A DNA stretch of 25,545 bases, taken from IMG/VR virus record IMGVR_UViG_3300035698_013082, positions 1-25,545 of that record; one strand, written 5' to 3'. The notes under the pieces are model-generated. The model was given only the letters and a program-made list of their open reading frames with translations. It was not told where the DNA came from and made no database searches. Source of the stretch: a virus. Shown here one piece after another: positions 10,165 to 25,182 of the stretch (position 1 is the stretch's first letter; each line of letters begins with the position of its first letter). Made by a program: the position numbers and the translations under genes.

Positions 10165-10878
10165 TTATTCCTCAACAAAATTATCTGTACGACAAAAAGA
10201 CATATCTTTACCTTTAAACAAAGAGGATTTGTCACCGACATGCTGTACAAGGGATTTTCCGACAACAGCAACACGATATCCCAAACCATAAGCAGCGCGG
10301 GCTATTTTCCAATCACATAAATTCCTCTGCATATGACTAACCCGCTTGTCGTTGTTTTTCAAATATTCCACACCCGTATATCCAGATTTAACAAACTTAT
10401 CCCAGAACTCAGTTCTAATCAACCAAGCGACCGCACCAGGATGACCGGCATCTATTATAGAGTATACACAATCAGAATTAAATTGACGGTTATAAAGAGA
10501 CAGATATGCAACATTTTCGTGCTCGTTTTCTATTTGCTCCATGATTTTTACAGCATCGTCAAACCAGTTTTTTGACAATATGATATCATCTTGCAGGTAT
10601 ACAATATATTTTGGCGACTGTTTGTAATCATTAAGATAGCTACAATATGCTCTTTCTATAGAGTTACAGCATGCTTTATATGTCCCACCATTTTTGTCAC
10701 TTTGTATTACTGAATATTTACCATAAAATTGCAGCATCTTATTTTTAAAAACACTATCAGAACAATCATCATATATTGTAACATTTTTGAATCCATAATT
10801 TGAATCTCTAAGACTTTCAACAGTCTGCTTTAAATAATCAGGGCGGTTGTATGTTGTTAGTGCTATGGGTATGGTCAT
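10165..10878 (-). CDS. Glycosyltransferase family 2-type (GT-A fold)
   Basis: The 237-residue protein opens with PIALTTYNRPDYLKQTVESL (residues 4-23), the typical nucleotide-binding start of GT2 enzymes, followed by VTIYDDCSDS (33-42) and YLQDDIILSKNWF (94-106). The DD in LQDD (97-98) is the metal-binding DxD-type motif. It is short for the family but appears complete as a single catalytic domain; no membrane segments are present, so it acts in the cytoplasm. It should transfer a sugar from a nucleotide-sugar to an unknown acceptor. It is the last glycan gene before the head genes and its start overlaps the GT9-like stop by ATGA. Confidence 0.85.
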   Translation of the reverse strand: MTIPIALTTYNRPDYLKQTVESLRDSNYGFKNVTIYDDCSDSVFKNKMLQFYGKYSVIQSDKNGGTYKACCNSIERAYCSYLNDYKQSPKYIVYLQDDIILSKNWFDDAVKIMEQIENEHENVAYLSLYNRQFNSDCVYSIIDAGHPGAVAWLIRTEFWDKFVKSGYTGVEYLKNNDKRVSHMQRNLCDWKIARAAYGLGYRVAVVGKSLVQHVGDKSSLFKGKDMSFCRTDNFVEE

Positions 10879-11651
10879 AAAAACATCTTTACTTTTTCGA
10901 AAACATCCTCAACTTTTGGTTGCCAAGTCTTATCTAAAAACTCAACAGGAGTATTAAACGGATTCCATATGTGTTTATACCGCTCTTTGTTCGTGCACCC
11001 GATTACTTGCTTGTGATTATCTGACCATGCCACAACAGGACAATTACACAACGCTGCAAGATGTCCGGGACCGCTTGACGGCGTTACAAGTACAGTAGCC
11101 ATTGCCAGCACATCAAATAGTTGAGGCATAGACAAGCCCCTCTGGTCTGTAATGCTACGAATATTATTCGCCCCGTCAATTGACCCTATGCAATATGCTG
11201 TGTGGGGCCCTATCTCATTTGAGATCATTGACTCAAGCTTAAGCCAATTCTCAATTGACCAATTGCGATAGTGTGTGCCAAGATTATTTGTTGCCCTGGC
11301 ATGAAACACTATACATGGAATATCACTTTTTTCAGCTTTGCCGTACTGAATAAACGTCTGATTAATTTTCCCGGTCAGACAGATCTCTTTTGATGGAAGA
11401 ATGTAATCACCGTCATCAATAACAGGAATAGGAGGAACATGACCACCGTTACACATCCACATATTACGTGAAGATACATCCCCCCAGGTTACAAAATCAG
11501 TTGCAAAGTCATCATATATTGACTCATGCCCTGGCTCGCAACCAACACACACGTAATCATAATCTTTTGCTATATATCGCAGATAACCTTGCCAGCGCAT
11601 TAACTCCCAACCATATTCGCCGCAGAAGAACCCTGCATATAGTTTTTTCAT
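10875..11651 (-). CDS. GT9-like (heptosyltransferase-like) glycosyltransferase
   Basis: I use the ATG at 11651 because it overlaps the upstream TGA (ATGA) and gives MKKLYAGFFCGEYGWELMRW; a longer frame exists but is not sensible. The product has 258 residues. The C-terminal half has PCIVFHARATNNLG (112-125), AYCIGSIDG (152-160) and VTPSSGPGHLAALCNCPVVA (189-208). The latter resembles the donor-binding loop of ADP-heptose:LPS heptosyltransferases and O-GlcNAc-type GT-B folds. The active enzyme would be cytoplasmic; donor and acceptor are unknown. It is translationally coupled to both neighbours. Confidence 0.8.
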   Translation of the reverse strand: MKKLYAGFFCGEYGWELMRWQGYLRYIAKDYDYVCVGCEPGHESIYDDFATDFVTWGDVSSRNMWMCNGGHVPPIPVIDDGDYILPSKEICLTGKINQTFIQYGKAEKSDIPCIVFHARATNNLGTHYRNWSIENWLKLESMISNEIGPHTAYCIGSIDGANNIRSITDQRGLSMPQLFDVLAMATVLVTPSSGPGHLAALCNCPVVAWSDNHKQVIGCTNKERYKHIWNPFNTPVEFLDKTWQPKVEDVFEKVKMFL

Positions 11652-11890
11652 TTTTTCGCAACAACCCTCTCCATAAATCCGACAACGACAAAACCGAAAC
11701 CTATACATGCATAAGGCGTTTGACCACCATACTCATGCATATCATTATTCATTGCGGCATACATAAGCAGACTACCACCGGCAATAAACATAACGCTTTT
11801 TACTTTGTGCAGATTTTTTGCATTGCTTACACATGTCGAGTCAGCGGAAACACAGAGAGAAATTAATAAAATGAGTATCAGCTTTTTCAT
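11648..11890 (-). CDS. Small exported/membrane protein, 80 residues
   Basis: It begins MKKLILILLISLCVSADSTC, a classic signal peptide or lipoprotein-like leader: positive n-region, hydrophobic core, with Cys at residues 13 and 20. Two further hydrophobic segments follow: VMFIAGGSLLMYAAM (about 33-47) and CIGFGFVVVGFME (about 62-74), so it is a membrane protein with one or two spans beyond the leader. No family is recognised. Its location between two glycosyltransferases (ATGA overlaps on both sides) suggests it works at the cell envelope with them, by context only. Confidence 0.75.
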   Translation of the reverse strand: MKKLILILLISLCVSADSTCVSNAKNLHKVKSVMFIAGGSLLMYAAMNNDMHEYGGQTPYACIGFGFVVVGFMERVVAKK

Positions 11891-12777
11891 AGCAAATCCT
11901 TTACTTTGTTTGCAGCGACCGGTATAGACAGGTTCTGTTTGTATCGTTTTGCATTATCTTTTGACAGTGTATCTAAAAACAAATTGCTATAGGAAACAAC
12001 TTTTTTTACATTAAACCAAAATTCACAGCGATCAACTTTGTCAACTACATAATCATTACCAATATTGACATTGTCAAACGCTACAATTGGCAACCCGCAG
12101 GCTTGCATCTCAGGGATAACACGCGGACAACTATCAACAGACGCATATGGCACGATACCAACACGACACCGATTTATCCAAAACGGCATACCAATACGAT
12201 CAACACGCCGACATGTTACGTTCGGTGGCGGTTCAAAACAAGGCCCATACCCAAGATGCAACATATTCATGTCCATAGGAAATGTTTTGTACACCCACTC
12301 GATACCCTTTATAGACGACTGCTGGCCGTTGGCAATGTAACACACGTCATACACTTTCATGCATTCCATAGGTTTAAAATGAGCAGCTGCTGGTTTAATG
12401 AATAGCTCAACTCGTTTGTTTGGGTATATGTCGAGTGTCTGTTTTTTCTGCTGTTCGGTATCGACAAGGATCAAATCAAAATCTGAGAATTCATACACCG
12501 GAGGAAAGAAACGCCTGCCGGCACCATAGTAAATTTTATATGCATCAGGATATTTTTTTATTATATCGCTCTGCCATGAGAACCCTCCGCGTGAGAATAT
12601 GTGTGTTGGTGACTCCGGAAGAGAGCTGTACTTTAGACCATTTTCGAAATAGATAGTATATTCATCATCCCCGGCAATCTCCCGAAACAACTGGACCCAC
12701 ATATCACTATTGTCATTGAGAGATAGAAGAGTTCTGGAATCCCATTCACCGCGTAGGAATAGCCATTTTTTAGACAT
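11887..12777 (-). CDS. Glycosyltransferase, GT-B fold, GT4-like
   Basis: The 296-residue protein begins MSKKWLFLRGEWDSRTLLSL. A Rossmann-like N-terminal half has FSRGGFSWQSDIIKKYPDAY (61-80) and DLILVDTEQQKKQTL (101-115). The C-terminal half carries MLHLGYGPCF and VDSCPRVIPEMQACGLPIVA (214-233), the conserved GT4-type E-x7-E region (here E222 with nearby G) that binds the nucleotide-sugar. It should be a cytoplasmic retaining glycosyltransferase. The start overlaps the upstream gene by 8 bases, and the stop overlaps the small membrane-protein gene by ATGA. Confidence 0.8.
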   Translation of the reverse strand: MSKKWLFLRGEWDSRTLLSLNDNSDMWVQLFREIAGDDEYTIYFENGLKYSSLPESPTHIFSRGGFSWQSDIIKKYPDAYKIYYGAGRRFFPPVYEFSDFDLILVDTEQQKKQTLDIYPNKRVELFIKPAAAHFKPMECMKVYDVCYIANGQQSSIKGIEWVYKTFPMDMNMLHLGYGPCFEPPPNVTCRRVDRIGMPFWINRCRVGIVPYASVDSCPRVIPEMQACGLPIVAFDNVNIGNDYVVDKVDRCEFWFNVKKVVSYSNLFLDTLSKDNAKRYKQNLSIPVAANKVKDLL

Positions 12778-13066: not shown

Positions 13067-13278
13067 TATTGTATACTCTCATTACAAGAATTAATATTTG
13101 ATCTTTCAAGAGCATTTTTTAGGCTTTCAGATTCAAAAAAATAATTATATACACCATTCGCGTCTTTATATATAAAACATTTTTTGTCTGTACACCATCC
13201 AATTTGACGATTCTTAAGATTTTCTTTTGTTACCATGGTTTCAAAAGTATCTTCGTATTGCTTAAATATTATTTCCAT
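13066..13278 (-). CDS. Small hypothetical protein with fibre-like GWCTD motif, 70 residues
   Basis: The start is MEIIFKQYEDTFETMVTKEN, followed by LKNRQIGWCTDKKCFIYKDA (21-40) and NGVYNYFFESESL. The 'xxGEIGyatDt...f.yyDgng' pattern occurs at the N-terminus of many phage tail-fibre and tropism-determinant domains; here it stands alone with no collagen-like or catalytic part. It may be an adaptor or a relic of a longer fibre gene. The start overlaps the sulfotransferase stop by one base. Confidence 0.55.
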   Translation of the reverse strand: MEIIFKQYEDTFETMVTKENLKNRQIGWCTDKKCFIYKDANGVYNYFFESESLKNALERSNINSCNESIQ

Positions 13279-13865
13279 TATTCTACCCTCTCTTTATACC
13301 TTAAACCACATTGCATACGCCCATTAGCACTTTTCCATTTATCCTTCGTTGATACCACCTTGTTAATATACTCTTTTTCTGGGCAATAGCCTATAATAGA
13401 ATATATTTGTTCTACAATTCCAAAGGGGTCATCTAACAGCATATCATAATACACCTCAAAATTATGGCTGTCATCCCTCAGAACGCTGTTAACAAATGGT
13501 ACATTATTTTTATACACTTCTCTCGCACCAACCTCATCATAGCCAAACGTTTTGTGGCATGACTTTGCACAATCATTTCGATTACGAATAATATTAAATA
13601 TCAAATGCTCCGGGAATAGGTCTATAAAATGGTTGATATAAGCCACTACACCCATTCCATTGCTATAGTATGGGAGTTTCTCACCAGAACCAATCCATGC
13701 GTTAGTCTCGACATAATTATTTAACGCATCTTCTGCTGTGTCGTATGTCATCAGCTTTCTACCCTCATGTATTAAGTCTGCTGATAGTGACGGGTGCATT
13801 GATATGATCCGCCTCAACATAGTTGTGCCTGACCTACAGAATCCGGTTACAAATATTGGTCTCAT
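13278..13865 (-). CDS. Sulfotransferase family protein
   Basis: The 195-residue protein begins MRPIFVTGFCRSGTTMLRRI, a P-loop-like 5'-phosphosulfate-binding motif (GFCRSGTTM, 8-16) typical of PAPS-dependent sulfotransferases. A second motif, FNIIRNRNDCAKSCHKTFG (90-108), matches the 3'-phosphate-binding loop (RxxxDxxxS). Length is short but compatible with a minimal domain. In the glycan island it would add sulfate groups to a sugar. PAPS would come from host sulfate activation. Stop and next start overlap by one base (TAATG). Confidence 0.8.
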   Translation of the reverse strand: MRPIFVTGFCRSGTTMLRRIISMHPSLSADLIHEGRKLMTYDTAEDALNNYVETNAWIGSGEKLPYYSNGMGVVAYINHFIDLFPEHLIFNIIRNRNDCAKSCHKTFGYDEVGAREVYKNNVPFVNSVLRDDSHNFEVYYDMLLDDPFGIVEQIYSIIGYCPEKEYINKVVSTKDKWKSANGRMQCGLRYKERVE

Positions 13866-13867: not shown

Positions 13868-14586
13868 CTATCCTTTGGTTAATCTATCCTCTATAATTTT
13901 TATATCTTCTGGGTAGTCTACTGCGTGACAGTTTGAGTCAACACATATCATTGATACGCATTCGAGATTTTCAAGAAACCTCAATATTTCTATGTCCTCT
14001 ACAGATTCAAGAGGTCTTTTTTCACCAAGTTTATAGAATTCTTCTAACTGATTTTTATAAAATCCATACACGCCAATTTGTTTTTTAGGCATATATGAAA
14101 CACCTTTTTTTGACATCGGGATCAATGCCCTTGACGCATACATTAAATCATTTTCTGAATCCGTTACGACTTTTACATACTTTGTGCTTTCAGGATTTTC
14201 TGTATCTTTGAAATAAGAATAACAATTATATGTTAGTGTTGCAGTTTTTGAATATTTTATCACTTTCTCAATAACATGAGGCTCAATCAATGGCTCATCA
14301 CCCTGCACATTAATAACATACTCGGTTTTTAGAATTCTGTTAGCCTCAGCACACCTGTCTATCCCTGTCAAACACTCGCCTGTCATAATAGAATTGTATC
14401 CGTAATCTCTCGCGCACTCATAGATCTCTTTCGAATCAGTAGCAATGCAAATGTCTACTTTTGTTTGACATAATTACATTGATTAGCTGTACGGATTACA
14501 ACAGGGATACCATCAATCGGATGCAGCATTTTGCCAAGAAAGCGTGTTGATCCTGCGCGGGCTGGAATTATTATGTTTGTTTTCAA
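13868..14586 (-). pseudogene. CMP-Kdo synthetase-like (KdsB-type) cytidylyltransferase, split by a frameshift
   Basis: Reading from TTG at 14586 gives (M)KTNIIIPARAGSTRFLGKML, the signature nucleotide-binding start of KdsB-like cytidylyltransferases. The start overlaps the upstream TGA (TTGA), and AGAAGGG lies seven bases upstream. This frame stops at a TAG near 14459 after about 42 codons. The remaining protein continues one frame away: VDICIATDSKEIYECARDYG, then NVQGDEPLIEP, ALIPMSKKG, KKQIGVYGFYK, RPLESVEDIEILRFLE and AVDYPEDI, all in family order. One extra A in the run of four (14459-14462) would restore a 239-residue protein, close to the usual length. As written the C-terminal part could only begin at ATG 14386 without the catalytic N-terminus. 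Whether it is mutated, sequencing error or recoded is open. Confidence 0.85.
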
Positions 14587-15527
14587 ATTAAACCCTTCTC
14601 ATATTTAATGTGTTTATCCCCTGGCAATTCTAACAATTTAACATATCGACATTGCACTGGCACACCGCCTTGTATCATACACTGATTATACAACGGATGT
14701 ATACCGAGCTTCGCACTCAACGAATAGCATATATCAGGTCCCCATTGATATTTGTCCTTTAGTAGCTGGAAATATTTCTCTTGCACTTTGAGTATCTCGT
14801 TAGGGTTCTCGTCTTCAAACAATAGTAATTTGGCAATATCGATATTGCCAGCACCCCGGCCCATACCTAAAATGGTTGCATCGACATATTCAACGAATAT
14901 ACTCGCATGTAAAGCGCTCTGCAACGCACCCCCATTATTATTGTGCAGATGTATGCCAACATTTTGCATACTCATCCTTGCAAAGTGCTTTACGTTTTTT
15001 GCTGATAATTGTCCAAAACTATCTGCAAAATACAGAGCCTCAATAGGCCAATCTTTTGTTGTATGCGAAATATCACAAAAATCATCCTCACCAACAAACG
15101 AAGCATACATAATGTTCAGAAACACTTTATATCCTAATTTGTCAAGTATATCAACTGCCTCCTCTGTGCATTTCATCTCATGTTGTTTTATTGCAATTCT
15201 GGCATATGTAAAAAAGTCTGATCTACCGATAGTATTTTTTAGCAGTTTGCTATCAAGTTTGCCATTGTCAATGTAGTCTTTAAGATCTATCATAAAACAA
15301 AAGTCGTTATGCTTATACTCTTCCTTTATCACAGAATTAAGATAATAATCCTCACAATATCTGAAACGTCCCAAACGGTTCTCTATTATTGGCGATTTAT
15401 AACCAAGCTCAATAATATCAACACCGCACGAATTCAATGCGTCAATCGTATCATTAACAAGATCTATATCCCAATACCAATCAGTGAGATATCCACCGTC
15501 TCTGAGAGTACAGTCTAATATTTTCAT
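14583..15527 (-). CDS. HMGL-like aldolase (DRE-TIM metallolyase superfamily)
   Basis: The 314-residue protein starts MKILDCTLRDGGYLTDWYWD; LDCTLRDGGY (4-13) is the diagnostic DRE-type metal-binding motif of this TIM-barrel superfamily (HMG-CoA lyase, 4-hydroxy-2-oxovalerate aldolase, isopropylmalate synthase). Later landmarks are ADSFGQL (168-174), GIHLHNNNGGA (191-201), the second metal-binding His pair, and GMGRGAGN (221-228). No C-terminal regulatory domain is present, so it resembles the aldolase members seen in surface-polysaccharide clusters. It would make or cleave a 2-oxo-4-hydroxy acid. Its neighbour is a CMP-ulosonate-type synthetase (TTGA overlap), which suggests joint synthesis of an activated keto-sugar acid. 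Confidence 0.85.
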   Translation of the reverse strand: MKILDCTLRDGGYLTDWYWDIDLVNDTIDALNSCGVDIIELGYKSPIIENRLGRFRYCEDYYLNSVIKEEYKHNDFCFMIDLKDYIDNGKLDSKLLKNTIGRSDFFTYARIAIKQHEMKCTEEAVDILDKLGYKVFLNIMYASFVGEDDFCDISHTTKDWPIEALYFADSFGQLSAKNVKHFARMSMQNVGIHLHNNNGGALQSALHASIFVEYVDATILGMGRGAGNIDIAKLLLFEDENPNEILKVQEKYFQLLKDKYQWGPDICYSLSAKLGIHPLYNQCMIQGGVPVQCRYVKLLELPGDKHIKYEKGLI

Positions 15528-16165
15528 AATACTCCTTCTAAATAATGCCGCTTAAACGCCGTTGGTGTAATAATTTTAAAATTAACACCAACACTTTTTA
15601 ACTCATCAAAAACTTTATACACAATATCATCTTTTTCTTTTTCGTACTCATAATCAGTACTATCAGAAAACTTATCACCATAACAATGCTGTTTAAATTT
15701 CTTATCTTCAAACGCTAGTGTATAGCCATCAAACCCAACACAATAAACATTCTCTGCACCAAGTATTTTCTGAGCAACAAATATGGCAAGGTTCCCACAA
15801 GTCCTAAATTTCCCCTTTACAATTTTATTATCTATTCCCATTTTGTGTTTAAACCGGTCTAAATAATCTATTTTGTAATATGGCATTCCAACAGTATCAA
15901 TGATGTTCTTTTTTAATTTACTGCCCAATATCAAAGTTGAATCACTGGATATTGTTTTGCCAAATGTTTTAAACCTGTCGTTATTTGTCCACATATGATA
16001 ATCCGGTTTTACAAACATTGACATATTGTTTATGCCTATAGTAAAGACTTTGTCTTTGTTTATAAATTTTTTAATTTGTTTTTCGTACAATTTAAGTGTA
16101 TAGCCAGCACCAACAACGACACACGTTCTACCAGCCTCTTTGTTTTTCAAATCAAAGACGTTCAT
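15524..16165 (-). CDS. DUF115/MptE-like protein, possible glycosyltransferase
   Basis: The start is ATG at 16165 with AAGGGGG upstream and ATGA overlap with a tiny upstream gene; a longer frame to 16339 is less credible. The 213-residue product starts MNVFDLKNKEAGRTCVVVGA, with a nucleotide-binding glycine loop (VVVGAGYTL, 17-25), TIGINNM (42-48), KPDYHMWTNNDRFKTFG (53-69) and RTCGNLAIFVAQKILGAENV (121-140) with YCVGFDG. This order is that of the DUF115 / 6-hydroxymethylpterin pyrophosphokinase MptE-like superfamily, which includes Maf-type sugar transferases for pseudaminic or related acids. In this cluster a sugar-acid transferase role fits with the aldolase and KdsB-like genes, by context. 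Confidence 0.7.
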   Translation of the reverse strand: MNVFDLKNKEAGRTCVVVGAGYTLKLYEKQIKKFINKDKVFTIGINNMSMFVKPDYHMWTNNDRFKTFGKTISSDSTLILGSKLKKNIIDTVGMPYYKIDYLDRFKHKMGIDNKIVKGKFRTCGNLAIFVAQKILGAENVYCVGFDGYTLAFEDKKFKQHCYGDKFSDSTDYEYEKEKDDIVYKVFDELKSVGVNFKIITPTAFKRHYLEGVL

Positions 16166-16221
16166 ACAACCCCCTTTATAAGAATAATAAATTTTATAAC
16201 ACAAATAATTAGAAATGTCAT
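16162..16221 (-). CDS. Tiny hydrophobic peptide, 19 residues
   Basis: ATG at 16221 overlaps the ParB-like stop (ATGA), and its own TGA overlaps the DUF115-like start (ATGA). The product is MTFLIICVIKFIILIKGVV, one probable membrane helix. Exact coupling at both ends supports real translation, or it may simply hand ribosomes on. Function unknown. Confidence 0.45.
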   Translation of the reverse strand: MTFLIICVIKFIILIKGVV

Positions 16222-16727
16222 ACTCGCTCCCAACTATAAACATCACATTCACAATCAATATCCAACACATACGCACACGCAAGCCTATGGTGGCCCTCGT
16301 ATATTTCATAATCACTCGCATTATGATTACTCTCAACAATTGGGCTGTCTAATAAAATAGGGGTCTCATTAATGCCGCTTGCTTTTATATCCTCATACAA
16401 CTCAATTAATTTATCACAGCGTTTTAGTGCACGAAACATGTCATCATTATTATATAACATCTGTAAAAAACAATATCGAGAAAATCTAACGTCTTTTGCA
16501 AACTCTTTCTTGCTAACATCGGCATATCTTTGCAGAGTAGTTACATGCGGTGACTGCAATAGTGATAGATATGAGCCTTTGTAACCTTCACAGAACACGC
16601 TTTTCCATATATTAAATCTATCCGGGTTATATTGACAGCATAATATACCAATCAAATCTTTACTCAGTTTTAGATTGCCAAGCTTTGTCAACTTAATGTG
16701 ATTTTTCAACAACTCTTTATATGTCAT
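16218..16727 (-). CDS. ParB-like domain protein of the glycan island
   Basis: The 169-residue protein begins MTYKELLKNHIKLTKLGNLK. Near the end, YEIYEGHHRLACAYVLDID (140-158) matches the ParB/sulfiredoxin-fold GxHRxxA box, where the fold binds a nucleotide. The N-terminal 120 residues are helical, with no HTH recognised, and Cys-rich patches lie at 30-31 and 156-161. Such stand-alone ParB-like proteins occur next to polysaccharide and tail genes and their function is not settled. It may be a nucleotide-dependent enzyme rather than a partition protein. It overlaps both neighbours by ATGA. Confidence 0.6.
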   Translation of the reverse strand: MTYKELLKNHIKLTKLGNLKLSKDLIGILCCQYNPDRFNIWKSVFCEGYKGSYLSLLQSPHVTTLQRYADVSKKEFAKDVRFSRYCFLQMLYNNDDMFRALKRCDKLIELYEDIKASGINETPILLDSPIVESNHNASDYEIYEGHHRLACAYVLDIDCECDVYSWERV

Positions 16728-17437
16728 TTATTCATCCTTTTTTTTAACCTATTCATCCTTTTTTTTAACCATACATCATACATCTTATTTCTCGTTTTAT
16801 AACCTATATACTCAGATTGCATTTCGATTGTATAGTCTTTGTCCATAAACTCTCTGTAAGTCTTCCTGAATGGCATTAAATCAGGATTATATTTGTTTTT
16901 CCACAGTATATACGCCAGTGCTATTTGATCCCGTCCGGACCCACGTTGCACCTCGTAAAACCAATTGTCCATTAGCATAGCTATCGTTGTTGTGTGTCGC
17001 CGTATCATTATCCCAGGAGCAAATAGCCCGTATCTCTCAGGCATGCCACCACGCCGGTATTCCATAGCAATATTAACGTCTTTGGTTGTGAGTAGTTTAG
17101 CCTCTTTGTATAAACAGTCTCTACGGTTGTGTTTCATTACTGCCATGTTGTGTTTTAGGTTGCGCTTGACGAACCTGTCGAGGTCTTGCCTAATGGTGAA
17201 TCGTGTATCTAAATAGATAGACAAGTCAGCGTCAAATGGTGGCACTATTTTCACGCGCCTGGACAATTTCAAATCGCTCAAGCCAAAGTTGTTTGTGATA
17301 TATTTCATATCCCACAGGCCAGACTTAATATTATAATTATTTGTATAGCAGATATATTTCCAACCTTTTGTAATATATGCTGGCTCGTTTAGCGTGTAGT
17401 TTTTGCCGATTATTACTGAGTATATCGTTTTGTTCAT
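16724..17437 (-). CDS. DUF616/TOD1-like glycosyltransferase
   Basis: The 237-residue protein starts MNKTIYSVIIGKNYTLNEPA. Family landmarks are YICYTNNYNIKSGLWDMKYI (28-47), SRRVKIVPP (59-67), ADLSIYLDTRFTI (70-82; D77 for the DxD-like site) and MAVMKHNRRDCLYKEA (98-113). The sequence order 'TDN...W......R..K..P......siY.Da...i..Dl..f......a...H..R.c.Y.Ea' is that of the TOD1/MUCI70-like domain. It should be a soluble sugar transferase. The C-terminus carries a duplicated heptapeptide. An intergenic 12 bases and a small peptide gene precede it. Confidence 0.75.
   Translation of the reverse strand: MNKTIYSVIIGKNYTLNEPAYITKGWKYICYTNNYNIKSGLWDMKYITNNFGLSDLKLSRRVKIVPPFDADLSIYLDTRFTIRQDLDRFVKRNLKHNMAVMKHNRRDCLYKEAKLLTTKDVNIAMEYRRGGMPERYGLFAPGIMIRRHTTTIAMLMDNWFYEVQRGSGRDQIALAYILWKNKYNPDLMPFRKTYREFMDKDYTIEMQSEYIGYKTRNKMYDVWLKKRMNRLKKRMNK
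16729..16770 (-). repeat. 21-base perfect tandem duplication at the 3' end of the DUF616-like gene
   Basis: Two identical 21-base units lie side by side (16729-16749 and 16750-16770) and duplicate seven residues, giving LKKRMNRLKKRMNK at the protein end. Each unit contains an AAGGA ribosome-binding element; the copy nearest the next start (16727) serves as its likely Shine-Dalgarno site. The duplication is recent, as the copies are identical. Confidence 0.8.
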
Positions 17438-17449: not shown

Positions 17450-17506
17450 TTAAATAAACGCGCGGAGCTGTCTTATGTCAGAAACAGAATCGTTCCAATT
17501 AATCAT
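17450..17506 (-). CDS. Tiny peptide after the methyltransferase, 18 residues
   Basis: ATG overlaps the methyltransferase TGA (ATGA) and codes for MINWNDSVSDIRQLRAFI before TAA. It could be the remnant of a longer gene or a coupling leader for the following glycosyltransferase. No other support. Confidence 0.35.
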   Translation of the reverse strand: MINWNDSVSDIRQLRAFI

Positions 17507-18009
17507 ACATTCCTCACAATCGTTAAACCGTAATAAAACGGCAATGTTAAAACCTCAATATTGACAATTTCAAGGCAGTCATCAAGATACTCACGTATTC
17601 TATGCGCATCCCAACAATAATGTTCACTCTGACACTTCTCCCCAGGGGGGAATGTGTCATGCAGTATAATCATGCCGGTTCTTTTTAGACTATTGAATGC
17701 ATTGTCAAAGTCTTTTTGAACCTGCGAATACTCATGCAGACCATCGATAAAAATTAAATCATACTTGTTTTTGTCGTTTTTAAAATAATCATCACTCGTG
17801 CATACGTTAACATCAGCATCAAAATTTACACATTTACGCATTTTTTCGTTTACATCGACAGCATGCGCATGTTTGAATAACGGCCCTACTTTGTTGAACG
17901 TCCTGGCATGCTGCACACCAATCTCAAGATATTTTCCGTTGTGTCCAGCAGCACAGAGACCTTTTGCTATTTCGTAGATTATGTTTATGTGAGCGGTTTT
18001 ACTGTACAT
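17503..18009 (-). CDS. Class I SAM-dependent methyltransferase
   Basis: The 168-residue protein contains KYLEIGVQHARTFNKVG (26-42), the glycine-containing motif I that binds S-adenosylmethionine (E29-x-G31). HAVDVNEKM (49-57) supplies the acidic residue contacting the ribose. YDLIFIDGLHEYSQVQKD (83-100) and GMIILHDTF (112-120) complete the Methyltransf_24-like pattern (D-x-IFIDG.H.Y..v..D). It is soluble and minimal in size. In glycan clusters such enzymes methylate sugars or their phosphates, an assignment by context. The start overlaps the previous stop (TAATG). Confidence 0.85.
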   Translation of the reverse strand: MYSKTAHINIIYEIAKGLCAAGHNGKYLEIGVQHARTFNKVGPLFKHAHAVDVNEKMRKCVNFDADVNVCTSDDYFKNDKNKYDLIFIDGLHEYSQVQKDFDNAFNSLKRTGMIILHDTFPPGEKCQSEHYCWDAHRIREYLDDCLEIVNIEVLTLPFYYGLTIVRNV

Positions 18010-18209
18010 TATATTATTACTCTGCGTAACCCATTTACTATACGGTAAAAATCCCTATCTATGCTTTCATCATAACAAGTACCGTCCTCTTTATCTTCGT
18101 CATGATCTAAAGAAAATAAACCATGCAGAAAATTATGCTCACCCTGCGTTTCAACAACAATTTTGTAAGGCTCAAACGCTTTCTTTTTGGTAATCTCTTC
18201 AATTCTCAT
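18009..18209 (-). CDS. Hypothetical protein, 66 residues
   Basis: The small acidic protein starts MRIEEITKKKAFEPYKIVVE and includes GLFSLDHDEDKEDGTCYDES; no family recognised. The opening KKAFEPYKIVVET is reminiscent of small beta-barrel phage accessory proteins. ATGA overlap with the upstream glycosyltransferase and TAATG with the downstream methyltransferase show it is part of the same coupled operon. Confidence 0.65.
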   Translation of the reverse strand: MRIEEITKKKAFEPYKIVVETQGEHNFLHGLFSLDHDEDKEDGTCYDESIDRDFYRIVNGLRRVII

Positions 18210-19042
18210 AACGCAACACCTTTCTCCTCAAAATATTTCTCAATTCGCCATTTCCAAATAGCGCCAACACTCTCATTTAACGGATGATTACGACTCGCTT
18301 GCTTGTGTGTGAAAAAAGCTTTACCTTTATAGTGCCACTCACACATATGCTCAGGTTTTTGTATGCACAGATCTCTCATGTTACCATTCTTATATGGGAG
18401 TTGCTCACCACCATTGCCACACAACACTCTCGGCATAGCATAACCAGAATAACCGGCATTCTTAATTATACATGGTAACGCCCACCCAGTATCTTGCTTA
18501 AAAAGACTCCCAACAGGTAATCCAACAACATTAGCCAAATCCTTTGTTTTAATTTTTGATTTTAACACAGATTCTTTTCCGTCAACTAACGCCGGATAAA
18601 AATTGAGTATTGGCGCTATTTTAGGATTGAACGCAAACATATACACCGTTGGAAAATTTTTGTATTTGTGTTTTGCTTGCCCGTAATCTCCACCAAAACA
18701 CACACATTTATCTTTGATCCGTTTACATACAATTTCATCCCAATTAGGATACAAAACCGCCGTGTCGGCATCTATAAATATTGCAATATCTGGCATCTCA
18801 GTATTAATTAAATTAACAAGCGCGGATTGCATAGCCTCGGCATGATTATAACTATTGTGTCCCAAGTTTGGAGAGCTACCAACACACGTCCATCCATCCG
18901 GCCCTTTGCCTACGTAATTAGATTTAATATATTTCCATCGTAGATCATGGTTACCACTCGACATAGCAATGGCAGTTTTTTGCAGGAACTCGGCGTAGTC
19001 TGTACTATTGCGAGTTATAAATGTATATATGTCTATTTTCAT
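18206..19042 (-). CDS. GT-A fold glycosyltransferase-like protein
   Basis: The 278-residue protein starts MKIDIYTFITRNSTDYAEFL. Its key segment is DIAIFIDADTAVLYPNWDEI (85-104), where DAD (91-93) is a canonical metal/nucleotide-sugar-binding DxD. Later features include VCFGGDYGQAKHK, KQDTGWALPCIIKNAG, and MCEWHYKGKAFFTHKQASRN near the end with conserved His and Trp, as in inverting GT-A enzymes. No membrane segment. Donor and acceptor unknown. The start overlaps by ATGA the restored frame of the preceding cysteine-rich gene. Confidence 0.75.
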   Translation of the reverse strand: MKIDIYTFITRNSTDYAEFLQKTAIAMSSGNHDLRWKYIKSNYVGKGPDGWTCVGSSPNLGHNSYNHAEAMQSALVNLINTEMPDIAIFIDADTAVLYPNWDEIVCKRIKDKCVCFGGDYGQAKHKYKNFPTVYMFAFNPKIAPILNFYPALVDGKESVLKSKIKTKDLANVVGLPVGSLFKQDTGWALPCIIKNAGYSGYAMPRVLCGNGGEQLPYKNGNMRDLCIQKPEHMCEWHYKGKAFFTHKQASRNHPLNESVGAIWKWRIEKYFEEKGVAL

Positions 19043-19608: not shown

Positions 19609-19615
19609 ATTGTTT

Positions 19616-19644: not shown

Positions 19645-19649
19645 GTTAT

Positions 19650-19787
19650 TTATTTTTCGGCCAAATATATTTGTAGGCATGCACATATTGTGATACATAT
19701 AAAAAGCGCATCAGAAGACATTTGCCCTAATATGTACGGGATTGTAACAACAACAGTAAACACAAACAAAATACCGCGCTGAATCAT
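19650..19787 (-). CDS. Small membrane protein, 45 residues, two probable spans
   Basis: ATG overlaps the GT2 stop (ATGA). The product starts MIQRGILFVFTVVVTIPYIL and ends ICITICACLQIYLAEK, two hydrophobic segments (about 5-20 and 28-42) separated by a short polar loop. No family recognised; holin-like topology is possible but such a call needs more. It is the last gene before the 19616-19644 promoter. Confidence 0.6.
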   Translation of the reverse strand: MIQRGILFVFTVVVTIPYILGQMSSDALFICITICACLQIYLAEK

Positions 19788-20494
19788 TTTTTCACCCACT
19801 TTGTAAAATTACACTTTTTAACTTTGCGAGAATCGTTATCAGGCAACAACTGAGGGCGAGTATACTCCGTTTTCTCCATCCATTCACGGCCAATATCATT
19901 GACTATGATACGATTAATTCCATACGGATACGCTTTGACCATATGATGTCTTCTGTATATTGGACTGACACACTGTACTTTTTTGGTGTATTTGTTAATG
20001 AAATCATGCAGCTGTGTCTCCGGATTATTAACAATATTCAAACGTGCAGACACATCTTTGAAAAACGATGTTCTATAGAATGATGGAGATAGTGGTATTG
20101 TTCTGTAAGCATAACTGTATGCGCGTAAAGCAACTGCATTAACATTTTGATTGTCAAACTGTCTTATAACATCATCTACTAATACACGCTCTGTAAGTTT
20201 CCAGTCATCTTCTAAATTAAGAAACCATTCATTTTCAGGTTGTTTCCATAACCATTTATATGCTGCTGGAAAGTTAGCTTGTTTTGGAACATGAATATTC
20301 CAGTGTCCGAAATATTTACCCACAACACTTAGAACGTCTACCTGTGCTTTGCCTTCTGGCAATGGGTCAACATTGATATGACATGTACTATTCTCCCAAT
20401 CCACACCCTTCAGATTTTTGTGGAATGATGCATATGTTCTATCTAATATTTCCGGTCTGCACATTGCCGTCGTTGTCACTTCAATTGATATCAT
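19784..20494 (-). CDS. Glycosyltransferase family 2-like (GT-A fold)
   Basis: The 236-residue protein starts MISIEVTTTAMCRPEILDRT (GT2-type beginning), with HINVDPLPEG (39-48), FPAAYKWLWKQPENEWFLNL (75-94) and EDDWKLT (95-101); EDD is the metal-binding site. The N-terminal nucleotide-sugar fold is clear; the C-terminal half has basic segments (HMVKAYPYGINRI). Cytoplasmic, acceptor unknown. Start overlaps the DUF1353-like stop (ATGA). Confidence 0.75.
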   Translation of the reverse strand: MISIEVTTTAMCRPEILDRTYASFHKNLKGVDWENSTCHINVDPLPEGKAQVDVLSVVGKYFGHWNIHVPKQANFPAAYKWLWKQPENEWFLNLEDDWKLTERVLVDDVIRQFDNQNVNAVALRAYSYAYRTIPLSPSFYRTSFFKDVSARLNIVNNPETQLHDFINKYTKKVQCVSPIYRRHHMVKAYPYGINRIIVNDIGREWMEKTEYTRPQLLPDNDSRKVKKCNFTKWVKK

Positions 20495-20934
20495 TTTTTC
20501 CTCAATTTATTTAACTTAGAAGGTTTTCCGTAACACACTCCACCAAACATTCTAACGACACGATAAAACAGGCTCCTCATAGTTGGCCTAACCTCGTCAA
20601 GCTCCATGCCGAGTAAAAATATCCTATCAGCGAGCTTTCTTGTACACCATTCTGGTGGATACGAATACAGCCAATCGTGTATACATGCCGCACGACCATA
20701 TCGACCGTCATCTTTTCCGGTACCAGGCTTTTTATACAGAGCCCTGACAACCGGGGGGATAGATGCAAAGTCAAATATAAACCCGTGTTTCGGCGTGACT
20801 TCGAAATACTCGCTATCAGTGCACATTTTTAATGTTAATGGGTTTGTAGACTGATCAAGTTTCCACATATTGCCGTCGATGTATTCAACTTTTAATTTGC
20901 CAGTATACACGCCTGTCAATTTAGATTTTGCCAT
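20491..20934 (-). CDS. DUF1353 family phage protein
   Basis: The 147-residue protein has GFIFDFASIPPVVRALYKKP (51-70) and YGRAACIHDWLYSYPPEW (79-96), the conserved 'GF.tDfaSIP ... a.aaviHDwLY' core of DUF1353, common in phage genomes and often near lysis or tail genes. The conserved His-Asp and Asp residues suggest a metal-dependent hydrolase-like fold, but its function is not established. It lies within the glycan island between two glycosyltransferases, coupled to the downstream one. Confidence 0.85.
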   Translation of the reverse strand: MAKSKLTGVYTGKLKVEYIDGNMWKLDQSTNPLTLKMCTDSEYFEVTPKHGFIFDFASIPPVVRALYKKPGTGKDDGRYGRAACIHDWLYSYPPEWCTRKLADRIFLLGMELDEVRPTMRSLFYRVVRMFGGVCYGKPSKLNKLRKK

Positions 20935-20937
20935 ATT

Positions 20938-21666
20938 TTAATCCTTTAGATTTGCAGGTGCGCCTTTACGTTTCATATGCCCCATGTAATAATCCTTATC
21001 ATCATTGTAATCAGCGTCAACATGATTATACTGCTCGCAGTCAAACAGCTCTATCTTATAGTTCTGATAACGCCGACGATCTATCTTGCGCTTAACCAGT
21101 GCAGATAGGAATATCTGATCTACCCACCACCTAAAATTAGTGCGGTTGTGAGTCTTTTCGGGCTTTCTGTTCTCTTCCAAAGTTTTCCATATTTCGTCAT
21201 ACTCAGGGATTTTATCACTACCAAAATTTTGTATACAATCTAACGCATCGAATAGTATTCCCTGATTTTGTATATAGAAGACACCACCATTCGCAAACGC
21301 CCGCATCGGTCTACCTCTCTCAACAAATGGTTTACGAATAGTAATTCCAATGTCAAACGTTTTATCGTAAACATGAGAAAAATCTTTGCAGAAAAACGTA
21401 TCAAAATCACAAAATGTAATATTTTGAGCTGGAAGGTGTGTCATACAAAACCAGAATTTCAGCATTTGCATTTGCGTATCCCACCGGTGTTTATCTATCT
21501 GCACGTATTTAATATCATAAGCTGTAAGCTCTGTGTGTTGCCTGTCTGTGATATCAGGGCCAAACAGCACACACTCAGCGTCTTTCATAATATGGCGAGT
21601 CTCAAGGAAGTGTTTGCCGTATTCGAAATATCGGCTATCTGACATTGTTACTATTGTGTGTTTCAT
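20938..21666 (-). CDS. Glycosyltransferase, GT8-like (GT-A fold)
   Basis: The 242-residue protein begins MKHTIVTMSDSRYFEYGKHF. FCDFDTFFCKDFSHVY (85-100) has the DFD metal-binding motif (87-89), and RAFANGGVFYIQN (122-134) is the family's second conserved block (NGGVFY). RWWVDQIFLSALV follows, resembling the D-Q segment of GT8-type enzymes. A good site (AAGGAG, six bases, ATG) overlaps the leader peptide stop (ATGA). It should transfer a sugar in the cytoplasm. Confidence 0.8.
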   Translation of the reverse strand: MKHTIVTMSDSRYFEYGKHFLETRHIMKDAECVLFGPDITDRQHTELTAYDIKYVQIDKHRWDTQMQMLKFWFCMTHLPAQNITFCDFDTFFCKDFSHVYDKTFDIGITIRKPFVERGRPMRAFANGGVFYIQNQGILFDALDCIQNFGSDKIPEYDEIWKTLEENRKPEKTHNRTNFRWWVDQIFLSALVKRKIDRRRYQNYKIELFDCEQYNHVDADYNDDKDYYMGHMKRKGAPANLKD

Positions 21667-21707: not shown

Positions 21708-21726
21708 TTTTTATTAGAGTCTCCGT

Positions 21727-21756: not shown

Positions 21757-21781
21757 TGTCTTTTTCTAAATCGTAAAGTTT

Positions 21782-21994: not shown

Positions 21995-22004
21995 TTGTTA
22001 CTCC

Positions 22005-22289
22005 TTAAGTTATACCGCCTCGTGCAAACTCACTTGCACCATTTAAAAAATCAGACAATTGTTTAAATTTATTAATACGATTAGCCTTTATATAAGCATA
22101 AAGCGCGCCCTTCTCATAATCATATTCATCATCCTCCCTACACTTTACAACGCCCTTTCGCCCATCCTTGAGTATTACGATAGTCGTAGTGTTGCTGGAG
22201 ATGATTTTTGTCACGAAATGTTTAGAAATAGCCAAATAATCAGCACAATACGGATTATCGCAGGTTTTACCATATTTTTTAGCACCCAT
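22005..22289 (-). CDS. Hypothetical protein, 94 residues
   Basis: It begins MGAKKYGKTCDNPYCADYLA with two Cys, then TKIISSNTTTIVILKDGRKG, VVKCREDDEYDYEKGALYAY. Soluble, with a mixed beta-rich middle that resembles small phage accessory proteins; no family recognised. It overlaps the end of the GT4-like gene by 11 bases, so it is co-translated. It is followed by the HTH gene after 10 bases. Confidence 0.65.
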   Translation of the reverse strand: MGAKKYGKTCDNPYCADYLAISKHFVTKIISSNTTTIVILKDGRKGVVKCREDDEYDYEKGALYAYIKANRINKFKQLSDFLNGASEFARGGIT

Positions 22290-23211
22290 CTAACAACTCC
22301 AGCATATACTCATAACTCGCATCAAGCGAAAATCTACCAACAGCCTGGGACCGACACATAACAGCAATATTATTATCATAATCAGATAGTAAATTCTCAG
22401 CGATATCAACGGCGTTGTATTTGTGATGTATCCTATACCCGAAAATATCGATGTTATAGAATTTATTCATCGGCCCCATGTACGCCACAGGCAACCCACA
22501 CATTCCCATTTCGACAAACGACTGTGGGAAACCCTCGGCTGTGATATCTGATAGGATGACACCGACTTTAGCCTTATTGATATAATGATGCACACGGTCA
22601 GGTCCGCAAGGCTCTGTCAATAGTAGCGTGTGTTTAGAGTTGCTGACTTTACTCTCATGTTTCTTGCCACCAATCCAAATAATAGAACGACGTTCTTTTA
22701 TACTGGCAAGTTCGTTAATAAACCACGCCTCATTTTTATCCCCGCGCTTACCAACAAAGCAATAATCATATTCCTTGACTTTCGTGTTAGGATACCAGAA
22801 ATTTTCGTCCTTTCCCTTAAACCACAGCCTACAATTGTCACCATCACCCAAAGCACTGTCAACATCGACGAGTGATACATCAGCATAACGATTGTGTCGA
22901 TTGTAAGAGCAGCAACTATAATACAGTTTTTTGTTGTCGAGGAGTTTAAGTATTTTGTCCTTCTCAGGATCGTGCTTAACCGACCACACAACAGCGTCGG
23001 GTTGTGTGCTGAGATACTCAAGCAGTGCATCGGGATTGCAAATGCTTGCTTCCCATTTTTCACGACACTGCTGAGGTGCGAGGTATATAATCTCACCAAA
23101 TTTCTCAGCATACGACCGATATCCGCACGTTGTTTTACCGTCTATCATAGACTGTTGTTTTTGGTGCATTCTGTCTGAGAATTTACCGTATAGGATGATT
23201 AGTTTTTTCAT
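22279..23211 (-). CDS. Glycosyltransferase, GT4-like (GT-B fold)
   Basis: The 310-residue protein starts MKKLIILYGKFSDRMHQKQQ. In the C-terminal half, SIIWIGGKKHE (176-186), KVGVILSDITAEGFPQSFVE (215-234) and MGMCGLPVAYMGP (235-247) match the GT4 donor site: E226 and E234 form the usual E-x7-E pair. The N-terminal half carries a Rossmann-like acceptor domain with Cys and His runs. It should be a cytoplasmic retaining sugar transferase. Start overlaps the preceding gene by ATGA. Confidence 0.85.
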   Translation of the reverse strand: MKKLIILYGKFSDRMHQKQQSMIDGKTTCGYRSYAEKFGEIIYLAPQQCREKWEASICNPDALLEYLSTQPDAVVWSVKHDPEKDKILKLLDNKKLYYSCCSYNRHNRYADVSLVDVDSALGDGDNCRLWFKGKDENFWYPNTKVKEYDYCFVGKRGDKNEAWFINELASIKERRSIIWIGGKKHESKVSNSKHTLLLTEPCGPDRVHHYINKAKVGVILSDITAEGFPQSFVEMGMCGLPVAYMGPMNKFYNIDIFGYRIHHKYNAVDIAENLLSDYDNNIAVMCRSQAVGRFSLDASYEYMLELLDGC

Positions 23212-23432: not shown

Positions 23433-23457
23433 AGCCTGCCATCCTTTGGTTATTATT

Positions 23458-23486
23458 AATATAGCCGACAACATTGGTGTTGTCAA
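23458..23486 (-). promoter_or_regulatory. Sigma70-like promoter with an 18-bp palindrome (operator-like)
   Basis: TTGACA (23486-23481), a 17-base spacer, TATATT (23463-23458). A perfect inverted repeat GACAACA-CCAA-TGTTGTC (23484-23467) runs from the -35 into the spacer, a typical repressor site. The segment GGCTATATTAA is identical to that of the promoter at 19616-19644. Confidence 0.85.
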
Positions 23487-23509
23487 GTTGTTTTTTACAA
23501 CGTCCGCGA

Positions 23510-23779
23510 TTATGCGAAGTGCCGTTTGATACATTCTATAATTCTATGGCCATGAGACGAATCTTTGGAATAGTTGATAATTCTCAAAACTTCGTCAGCG
23601 CATTTTATATAATCGCTGTAGTTGGATGTAAAATTTAACTCGCCGCCGTTACTTAAAGAAACCCCTTCGATATTGGCAATTAATTTAGTACGAATGAACT
23701 TGTACACTAAGCCGTGCTCGTGAGTAGATAGTTTACCCAGCTCTTCGATTATTTCATCTTTTAAACTTAATCTAGACAT
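23510..23779 (-). CDS. Hypothetical protein, 89 residues
   Basis: The protein starts MSRLSLKDEIIEELGKLSTH after AAGGAG and continues EHGLVYKFIRTKLIANIEGV, then SDYIKCADEVLRIINYSKDS, ending IKRHFA. Mostly helical and soluble; similar small helical proteins are common in phage accessory regions. Its end overlaps the alternative long start of the next gene by 25 bases. No family recognised. Confidence 0.65.
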   Translation of the reverse strand: MSRLSLKDEIIEELGKLSTHEHGLVYKFIRTKLIANIEGVSLSNGGELNFTSNYSDYIKCADEVLRIINYSKDSSHGHRIIECIKRHFA

Positions 23780-23796
23780 TTACTGCTCCTTAAATT

Positions 23797-23883
23797 TTAT
23801 TTCCTACAACGTTCTGCAAATGTTGGCAGTGTACCCATTGCCGGCTTTGCGTGTTGTGAGATGTTAAAAATTATTGCTGCCAT
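23797..23883 (-). CDS. Small protein, 28 residues
   Basis: ATG at 23883 overlaps the end of the broken membrane-protein frame. The product MAAIIFNISQHAKPAMGTLP goes on TFAERCRK before TAA. It has no Shine-Dalgarno site but reads sensibly and overlaps its neighbour. Function unknown. Confidence 0.4.
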   Translation of the reverse strand: MAAIIFNISQHAKPAMGTLPTFAERCRK

Positions 23884-24000
23884 ATAAAAAATACAGCCAA
23901 CACAAACCAACCGATACCGGAATTACCACCTGCATGCGTATATTAATAACCCACATACGCATGCAGCGGCAACTGTAGAAAGCCCTTTGTCAAATTTCAC
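23871..24000 (-). pseudogene. Small membrane protein, apparently broken by a +1 frame change
   Basis: GTG at 24000 after GGGGGTAAG starts (M)KFDKGLSTVAAACVCGLL and stops at TAA 23925-23923. One frame later, GGNSGIGWFVLAVFFIWQQ continues to a TAA at 23873-23871 with no start of its own. Joined, they give a 44-residue protein with two hydrophobic segments and a short loop, a common small phage membrane-protein layout. The break falls in a 12-bp inverted repeat. Alternatively they are a 25-residue peptide plus unused sequence, or an ATG frame at 23956 (MWVINIRMQVVI) is used. Confidence 0.4.
23930..23966. repeat. 12-bp perfect inverted repeat with 13-base loop
   Basis: CTGCATGCGTAT (23930-23941) is complementary to ATACGCATGCAG (23955-23966). 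No T-tract follows on either strand, so it is not a typical terminator. It lies inside the small membrane-protein gene and may be an mRNA hairpin, a protein-binding site or the source of the frame break. Confidence 0.7.
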
Positions 24001-24018
24001 CTTACCCCCAAAACAATA

Positions 24019-24160
24019 CACCGAACAGGGAATTGAACCCTGTGCAGCAAGCCTTAAGTTTATAAATATGGTGAAGAGTGTAGAAACCGCTACTTTCTTT
24101 GATCGACGTTTGCAACCGTACAGCGTTCAGAACCTCATGACCCGCCTACACACATTCACC
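24019..24160 (-). ncRNA. Possible structured RNA with a tRNA T-arm-like hairpin
   Basis: On the minus strand, GGTGAA-TGT-GTGTAG (24160-24146) pairs with CTACAC-TC-TTCACC (24083-24070): 12 base pairs around a small internal loop, enclosing 62 bases. Downstream, CAGGG-TTCAATT-CCCTG (24042-24026) is a perfect T-arm, loop included, followed by TTCGGTG as an acceptor-like strand. No matching 5' acceptor (CACCGAA), D-arm or anticodon arm was found, so it is not a normal tRNA. Options are a tRNA-derived attachment core (attP), a tRNA-like end of a longer RNA, or a relic. The stretch contains no credible gene. Confidence 0.35.
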
Positions 24161-24168
24161 CTATCTGA

Positions 24169-24276
24169 TTAATCCACATCAAACAATTTTAAAATATCAA
24201 GCTTTTTCCAATTTTGAATTTTTCCTTCTGGATCAATATTCATTATTATATAATCACCAAACCCGTCACTTGACAT
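24169..24276 (-). CDS. Small protein, 35 residues
   Basis: ATG at 24276 codes for MSSDGFGDYIIMNIDPEGKI, then QNWKKLDILKLFDVD. The composition is protein-like and not random. AAGGAGT lies upstream but too close to the ATG (one base), so the start is uncertain. It follows the GT4-like gene by 15 bases. Function unknown. Confidence 0.5.
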   Translation of the reverse strand: MSSDGFGDYIIMNIDPEGKIQNWKKLDILKLFDVD

Positions 24277-24291
24277 ACTCCTTGTATATTT

Positions 24292-25182
24292 TCATGATAT
24301 CATCTCCACAAACCTCAGCATATTACTCTCCCGGGCACCAATCGCATGCAGCATATTACGCATTGCGTTAACTTTGCTATAATCGATAGTGTCTATTGCG
24401 ACTAACAACTCGTCGAAAGTCTTGAACGGCGTTGCTGTATCAGGTGTGCAGTAATCAGACGTTCCACCATGAGGGACGTCGTTATAAATAATAGGACACC
24501 CACACAACGCAGCCTCGGCCGGCATTTGATGAAATCCTTCATTTGTCGATAGAGATAGCCAACAAGAGCATGCATTATAAACCTCTCTCATTTTAATTTT
24601 ATTATAATTAGAATCAGAGAATACATGGGCAAGATTTTGGTCACAATAAATCAACTTATCTATAATACCATTGTCTTTGAATTTATGTTTTCTATGATCG
24701 AGCACTCCTGAATACATTGGCATTTTGGGAACCTGCGTCAATTTCTTCCAGAAATCCAAATCCAACCCCGCAAAACAACACTCAGCATCCACGCCAATAT
24801 CATTACACTTATCGATTAAATGCGTGGCGTTGGTGATGATTTTACCGTAAAGGCTAAACTGTCGCAACTTATCAATCAATATTTTTTCTCCATAAACCCA
24901 ATCCTCCCAACCACGCAGCCACCAGACAACATTACGGTGCCAAATATCCATAGTGCTCTGTGCATCCCAAACAGACACGCACACAACAACATCATATTTA
25001 TTTGCATGCGTCATGTCAGGCAAAATTGGCACTCCGATAGTGCCCCAGGTGTAACGATTCACCATTGACACTATCGCTACCTCACAGCCTAACGATTGCA
25101 ATGTTTCGGCACTGCGAATGATGGTTTTTGACCCGCCGTTATTGCCGAGGGATGAGTTATATGCGTTGAATAGGATTTTCAT
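24292..25182 (-). CDS. Glycosyltransferase, GT4-like (GT-B fold)
   Basis: ATG at 25182 overlaps the Ser-X repeat stop (ATGA). The 296-residue product starts [20 protein letters not shown], a typical GT4 acceptor-domain opening with a glycine-rich loop. WLSLSTNEGFHQMPAEAALC (208-227) and GCPIIYNDVPHGG (228-240) form the donor site: E215 and E223 fit the E-x7-E pattern. The reading frame stays open upstream through the hexanucleotide repeat as Val-X dipeptides, so a longer product starting at an in-repeat ATG cannot be excluded; the conserved core starts at the chosen ATG. The G-rich repeat supplies AGG-type ribosome-binding bases three bases before it. Confidence 0.85.
   Translation of the reverse strand: MKILFNAYNSSLGNNGGSKTIIRSAETLQSLGCEVAIVSMVNRYTWGTIGVPILPDMTHANKYDVVVCVSVWDAQSTMDIWHRNVVWWLRGWEDWVYGEKILIDKLRQFSLYGKIITNATHLIDKCNDIGVDAECCFAGLDLDFWKKLTQVPKMPMYSGVLDHRKHKFKDNGIIDKLIYCDQNLAHVFSDSNYNKIKMREVYNACSCWLSLSTNEGFHQMPAEAALCGCPIIYNDVPHGGTSDYCTPDTATPFKTFDELLVAIDTIDYSKVNAMRNMLHAIGARESNMLRFVEMIS

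Follow-up and report, generated by a model that had tools for sequence, protein, structure and literature searches.

The virus record IMGVR_UViG_3300035698_013082 of IMG/VR (25,545 bases, G+C 0.39), analyzed at its full length and called the window below, carries an island of genes for glycan-modifying enzymes at 10165-25182, next to the genes for the phage head. We propose that the phage uses this island, expressed together with the head genes, to assemble a glycan in the cytosol, most likely a short, charged oligosaccharide attached to at least one virion protein; we put the probability of this reading slightly above one half (about 0.52). It is based on the gene content, the conserved order and position of the genes, two predicted enzyme folds, and the lack of any recognizable initiation, flippase or polymerase function. 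A conserved set of about 15 enzymes in uncultured bacterial or archaeal viruses would then probably give the particle a coat of complex acidic sugar; a coat on the host cell is the less likely alternative. A previous interpretation made without database searches, referred to here as the sequence-only reading, had described a single-strand, phage-borne island. Indeed, all of its genes, like all other convincing genes of the window, lie on the minus strand, and, in the direction of transcription, they are located upstream of the Mu F-like, scaffold-like, and capsid genes.

The island keeps its order and its place beside the head genes

To find relatives, we searched with the capsid, which led to G001 (53% capsid identity) together with its near-identical copy G002, and then to G008 (61%); a search with the GT9-like glycosyltransferase gene led to G003, G004, and G009. 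The relatives have the same architecture as the window, in the order portal, glycan genes, Mu F-like gene, scaffold, and capsid. The island lies between the portal and the Mu F-like gene in G001, G003, and G009 (the portal and terminase of G009 were confirmed as phrog_145 and phrog_2, respectively), and G004 and G008 start inside the island and run on into the Mu F-like gene. The synteny survey put forward in the sequence-only reading thus gave the same architecture, with 13 to 15 shared genes in essentially the same order in three relatives: 13 genes without inversion in G008, 14 without inversion in G009, and 15 with 3 inversions of 105 in G003. Such conservation was reached by none of 20,000 shuffles. 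The two ends of the island are occupied by the same genes, with orthologues of the first gene, GT_A, at the portal side in G001, G003, and G009, and an orthologue of the last gene, GT_H2, as the final glycan gene ahead of the Mu F-like gene in all five relatives that have this junction.

The mean identity over all pairs was 32 to 42% for island genes and 35 to 47% for structural genes; for G003, G008, and G009, it was 34 to 42% and 36 to 47%, respectively. The similar divergence of the two sets indicates long joint inheritance. Judged by these comparisons, an undescribed phage group with genomes of about 58 to 61 kb has long passed the island on by vertical descent as a module. The island of G001 is shorter, retaining GT_A, GT_D, and the last three genes and lacking the ulosonate and sulfation genes, which indicates that the interior is variable and the ends are stable. 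As for a chromosomal contig misjoined to a phage near position 10164, which the sequence-only reading had named as its possible undoing, nothing was found in its favor. The same junction and order recur in other contigs, in G001 and G008 the last island gene and the Mu F-like gene share a few bases, and a single assembly artifact is not the cause because the metagenome names of the contigs differ. We therefore rejected a misassembly on the basis of synteny, with hardly any probability left to it.

No close relatives were found in the isolate-phage collection, either by megablast with the window or by tblastn with the portal of a relative and the GT9 protein of the window. A search for hosts with the capsid profile against the GTDB genomes gave no match.

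Ten putative glycosyltransferases and no recognizable machinery for building a polymer

Gene identities were obtained from Pfam and PHROG scans, and two proteins without a clear family were modeled (15524-16165 and 20938-21666). Ten putative glycosyltransferases were counted in the island, six by family models, two by fold, and two by motif, in agreement with the earlier estimate of at least eight. Together with the other enzymes, this makes the island far larger than seroconversion cassettes, as had been claimed. The group 1 matches at 24292, 22279, and 11887 are weak to moderate; GT_F, the last of these, has orthologues in G001, G003, G004, G008, and G009. For GT_C, the model pointed to a GT-A fold, with BoGT6a (4ayj) as the top match (Z score, 15.2) and with glycogenin and the viral enzyme 2p72 (Z score, 13.8), one among many GT-A matches, also found. 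GT_D and GT_E are candidates based on a DxD-type motif and weak GT2 matches of their homologues. The gene for the TOD1/MUCI70-like enzyme has an FkbM methyltransferase domain fused to it (locus L016) or adjoining it in relatives. A PDB sequence-profile search with the GT9 protein gave no match.

The sequence-only reading had seen no initiating transferase, flippase, or polymerase, and PF02397, PF01943, and PF04932 were indeed absent from six records (the window and five relatives). The same records, some of them fragments, had no GtrA (PF04138) or integrase (PF00589). Neither did they contain a thymidylate synthase (PF00303), two of them being near full-length and other base-modifying enzymes not being searched for. 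Positive controls were matched in these scans. Read from their likely starts, the window's enzymes had no 19-residue segment with a hydropathy above 1.6. Two DUF115 orthologues and one GT_C orthologue reached 1.61 to 1.68, slightly over this usual limit, and two small unassigned open reading frames (ORFs) reached 1.94 and 2.12.

A predicted route to an activated ulosonic acid

Three adjoining genes encode a Maf-core-like protein, an aldolase, and a KdsB-like cytidylyltransferase. The first, called DUF115-like in the sequence-only reading, is related to PF01973, but its sequence score of 23.6 is below the cut-off of 34.6, and it is the fold that places it near Maf and CstII. Its model matched Maf (5mu5) with a Z score of 15.5 and a root mean square deviation of 3.0 over 184 aligned residues, CstII (1ro8) with a Z score of 12.5, and MjHPPK with a Z score of 12.7; a PDB sequence-profile search gave no match. 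Maf and the CstII sialyltransferases both work with CMP-ulosonic acids as substrates. The protein has 213 residues compared with 632 in the 5mu5 chain, and the match covers the core region (residues 262 to 507), without the N- and C-terminal domains of Maf. According to the model, therefore, it is Maf-core-like and not a Maf. A role as a pterin kinase or regulator would be possible by the shared fold (Foldseek alone placed MjHPPK and SteA first), but the neighboring genes do not fit such a role. Fold assignment from structure, proposed earlier for every gene, was thus made for two: Maf/CstII for 15524 and GT-A for 20938.

The aldolase had profile matches to 3dxi, a putative aldolase, and to 4-hydroxy-2-oxovalerate aldolases. 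The KdsB-like call of the sequence-only reading was borne out by PF02348, although the gene is not intact: a frameshift near 14455-14473, close to a short run of A, splits it in the window, and it is intact in loci L009, L016, and L031. The ulosonate branch of the window is therefore either broken or masked by a sequence error at this frameshift. Against the KdsB equivalog model TIGR00466 (cut-off, 155.2 bits), the window scored 80.5 bits and intact relatives scored 62.7 and 69.3; by these scores, the enzyme is KdsB-like and does not reach the level of KdsB, the synthetase of cytidine monophosphate (CMP)-activated 3-deoxy-D-manno-octulosonic acid (KDO).

The pairing of the two genes is also seen in cells. 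A KdsB-like gene was found within 3 kb of this aldolase in 33 of 79 bacterial and archaeal loci from GTDB genomes. In the aldolase-KdsB loci of Vibrio, Metabacillus, and Flavobacterium, an HAD-like (phosphatase) gene lies nearby, that of Vibrio being confirmed by Pfam. In the archaeon Methanocalculus, an HpcH/HpaI aldolase gene directly precedes KdsB. The aldolase itself is widespread in the bacterial and archaeal loci (L101-L180), often adjoining KdsB-like genes. Among the viral loci, an HpcH/HpaI aldolase and a 2-hydroxyacid dehydrogenase fill the slot of the HMGL aldolase between the Maf-core and KdsB-like genes in L048 and L075, with Pfam support for both genes in L075 and for the aldolase only in L048. 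Both types, the HMGL-type 4-hydroxy-2-oxo acid aldolases and the HpcH/HpaI enzymes, belong to the pyruvate aldolases, and the latter type therefore looks like a substitute at the same, inferred step.

Maf enzymes attach ulosonic acids, including KDO from CMP-KDO, to Ser/Thr of flagellin, and their core resembles CstII (PMC11339370). Together with the Maf-core/CstII fold and the aldolase-KdsB pairing, this suggests a route in which an ulosonic acid is formed by the aldolase, activated with CMP, and transferred, all three being predicted reactions. Besides transferring sugars, the island thus seems to have the means of producing an acidic sugar in activated form. The aldolase would join pyruvate and a sugar aldehyde into a 3-deoxy-2-ulosonic acid, and the KdsB-like enzyme would convert it to the CMP sugar, the donor for transfer by the Maf-core/CstII-like enzyme. 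The remaining soluble glycosyltransferases might extend the chain from host nucleotide sugars, and the sulfotransferase and methyltransferases might cap it. We infer the substrates, the order of the reactions, late expression, and the virion acceptor. In the literature searched, with most subscription papers outside it, no description of phage-encoded nonulosonate or KdsB islands was found.

The acceptor of the glycan

Where the glycan is attached had been left between virion protein, DNA, and host lipopolysaccharide (LPS). We favor the virion protein, leave a host glycan open, and disfavor DNA. Both the neighboring head genes and the Maf-core fold point to a cytosolic protein made late, that is, to a virion protein. 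Several points weigh against this choice. Unrelated genes are common among the structural genes of phages, and soluble glycosyltransferases can also reach host glycans on lipid carriers at the inner membrane. G001 and G008 have an incomplete ulosonate branch, the latter having no aldolase, and loci L041, L048, and L075 have a large part of the gene set without lying beside the same Mu F type. Moreover, glycosyltransferase clusters of cyanophages, jumbo phages, and pelagimyophages have been interpreted as acting on the host surface, those of pelagimyophages and jumbo phages as modifying the host O-chain or capsule (PMC7824862, PMC7029224). The island could likewise remodel a surface glycan of the infected host (LPS core or O-chain, capsule, or archaeal glycan), for example, to block superinfection or aid release. 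GT9 and KdsB-like proteins are typical LPS enzymes, and the cellular aldolase-KdsB pairs sit among typical polysaccharide genes. We consider this the strongest competitor, if a less probable one, given the tight head-gene linkage in every relative of the group and the Maf-core fold; lysogenic conversion of a known type does not fit, as no integrase, GtrA, initiating transferase, flippase, or polymerase was found.

Virus-encoded glycosyltransferases can also hypermodify DNA (Pyle 2024, as cited in PMC12619734), and a Lar-like anti-restriction gene adjoins the island, so protection of phage DNA from restriction was weighed. This is improbable because no thymidylate synthase homologue was found in the six records, two of them near full-length, and because of the Maf-type fold, and the linkage is to head genes rather than replication genes. 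To our knowledge, sulfotransferase, KdsB-like, and Maf-core enzymes are not parts of DNA modification. Equally improbable is a free or carrier-bound sugar metabolite with no decorated macromolecule: the ParB-like protein and the aldolase, both without an assigned specificity, would suit it, but ten glycosyltransferase candidates in one order far exceed the needs of a metabolite pathway.

Borders, other genes, and wider occurrence

The features are listed in Table 1. In the direction of transcription, the window starts about 360 bases ahead of GT_A and runs through the island to the Lar-like, Mu F-like, scaffold-like, capsid, and tail genes, the last being a partial tape-measure-like gene. The claimed borders, portal and Mu F-like gene, hold in the relatives, where the portal adjoins the island; in the window, the portal lies outside (its C terminus was sought in the last 360 bases without a match), and the Lar-like gene intervenes on the other side. 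PF04233 did not match the Mu F-like gene of the window, and the L016 orthologue gave a weak match (E value, 1.1e-4) below the cut-off. The island had also been described as translationally coupled. Overlaps of 1 to 11 bases are frequent (about a dozen), but gaps of 512, 115, 95, 65, and 52 bases interrupt the coupling. A degenerate 6-base tandem repeat (consensus TGACCC, about 34 copies, 25182-25384) lies immediately upstream of the GT_A start. It lengthens the open frame of GT_A, and the start of the long ORF is therefore doubtful.

Table 1. Features of the window, in order of position
Feature	Position	Strand	Support or remark
Major capsid protein	6691..7623	-	phrog_212 E 2.7e-19
Scaffold-like gene	7636..8469	-	
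Mu F-like minor head protein, downstream border	9080..9994	-	Synteny; L016 orthologue PF04233
Lar-like restriction alleviation protein, 56 residues	9994..10164	-	TIGR03655 E 2.8e-13; PF14354 E 7.7e-15; separates island from Mu F-like gene
GT_H2, GT2, last island gene	10165..10878	-	PF00535 E 1.1e-10
GT_G9, heptosyltransferase-like GT9	10875..11657	-	PF01075 E 7.1e-5; start codon within range uncertain
GT_F, glycosyltransferase group 1-like	11887..12777	-	PF13692 E 2.4e-4
Sulfotransferase	13278..13865	-	PF13469 E 1.1e-11; SGTT motif kept in 3 phages
KdsB-like cytidylyltransferase, frameshifted	13868..14598	-	PF02348 E 1.9e-18; NF009905 E 4.1e-43
DRE-TIM (HMGL-like) pyruvate-type aldolase	14583..15527	-	PF00682 E 1e-14; profile matches 3dxi, 1nvm
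PF01973-related Maf-core/CstII-like glycosyltransferase	15524..16165	-	Model, predicted local distance difference test (pLDDT) 87.9
Small ParB/Srx-like protein	16218..16727	-	phrog_4715 E 0.006
TOD1/MUCI70-like glycosyltransferase	16724..17437	-	PF04765 E 6.1e-9; phrog_26101 E 2.4e-17
S-adenosylmethionine (SAM) methyltransferase	17503..18009	-	PF13578 E 7.6e-11
GT_E, GT2-like by motif DADT	18206..19042	-	L075 homologue PF00535 E 1.2e-4; alignment
GT_D, GT2-like by motif LEDDW	19784..20494	-	No own family match; L075 homologous ORF PF00535 weak, E 0.004
DUF1353/phrog_1158 phage gene within island	20491..20934	-	PF07087 E 6.4e-15; phrog_1158 E 6.3e-21
GT_C, GT-A fold glycosyltransferase, DxD motif	20938..21666	-	AlphaFold model, pLDDT 75.6
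GT_B, glycosyltransferase group 1-like	22279..23211	-	PF13692 E 1e-5; orthologues in G003, G008, G009
GT_A, glycosyltransferase group 1-like, first island gene	24292..25182	-	phrog_2170 E 2.6e-6; PF13692 E 0.002

The sulfotransferase, methyltransferase, and aldolase calls made earlier were supported by PF13469, PF13578, and PF00682. The ParB-like protein, found at the same place in 7 phages with invariant NPD and EGH motifs, is possibly a small-molecule kinase. Several small ORFs without an assigned family sit inside the island. Side features were observed in two relatives. G001 has a 10-base repeat in 20 copies (TAAGGCCGTA; L006:7358-7564) and, at 17976-24245 (L005/L006), a second gene group for two radical SAM-like proteins, two glycosyltransferase-like proteins, and one SET-like, one sugar-transferase-like, and one ParB-like protein, recognized by eye in the translations. 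G003 has many pentapeptide-repeat genes (L018:146-1444 and several ORFs of L018/L020), some within the island.

At least 152 viral contigs contain a member of the GT9-like family, and 80 loci were fetched. In L013, a 188-kb contig with a tblastn match, the gene calls gave no recognizable island. Scans of viral contigs with single GT2 and aldolase sequences found nothing, and alignment queries gave matches.

Comparison with known systems

Clusters of glycosyltransferase genes in phages have been described before, and so, independently, has the glycosylation of virions. The island stands apart from these through its conserved gene order, its constant position next to the head genes, and a probable ulosonate pathway of its own. 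If the glycan is on the virion, some small phages reserve between about a quarter and two fifths of the genome for coating the particle, and views of adsorption, immune evasion, and particle chemistry in uncultured phage groups would change. The aldolase-KdsB pairing across bacteria, archaea, and phages points to an apparently unassigned CMP-ulosonic acid route.

Seroconverting gtr cassettes share phage glycosyltransferases with the island, which has many more enzymes and in which GtrA and integrase were not found; likewise, PF02397, PF01943, and PF04932 of Wzx/Wzy polysaccharide loci were not found with it. The clusters of pelagimyophages, cyanophages, and jumbo phages also have many glycosyltransferases, partly in structural regions, but they are reported to vary in content, whereas the order of the island is conserved across highly diverged genomes. 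The Maf flagellin system has a similar Maf-core fold and a cytidylyltransferase neighbor; the island protein differs in its 213 residues without flanking domains, and its aldolase is of the DRE-TIM type, not NeuB/KdsA. Mycobacteriophages such as Che8 and Rita have glycosyltransferases of their own, with capsid and tail proteins as the reported targets (Freeman 2023, as cited in PMC12619734 and PMC11256854). Compared with them, the island has about ten glycosyltransferase candidates together with donor-sugar, sulfation, and methylation genes between the portal and the Mu F-like gene. In Paramecium bursaria chlorella virus 1 (PBCV-1), capsid glycosylation takes place in the cytoplasm and involves at least eight putative glycosyltransferases encoded by the virus (PMC7019647). 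This virus resembles the island in its many virus-encoded glycosyltransferases, and GT_C shares the GT-A fold of its 2p72, although PBCV-1 is a eukaryotic virus with an unrelated capsid, other gene linkage, and other sugars. We tentatively suggest, as a more specific and less secure proposal than virion glycosylation as such, that this phage group makes a virion-attached sulfated oligosaccharide with its own CMP-ulosonic acid, obtained by a pyruvate aldolase route, and would thus be the prokaryotic-virus counterpart of chlorovirus capsid glycosylation.
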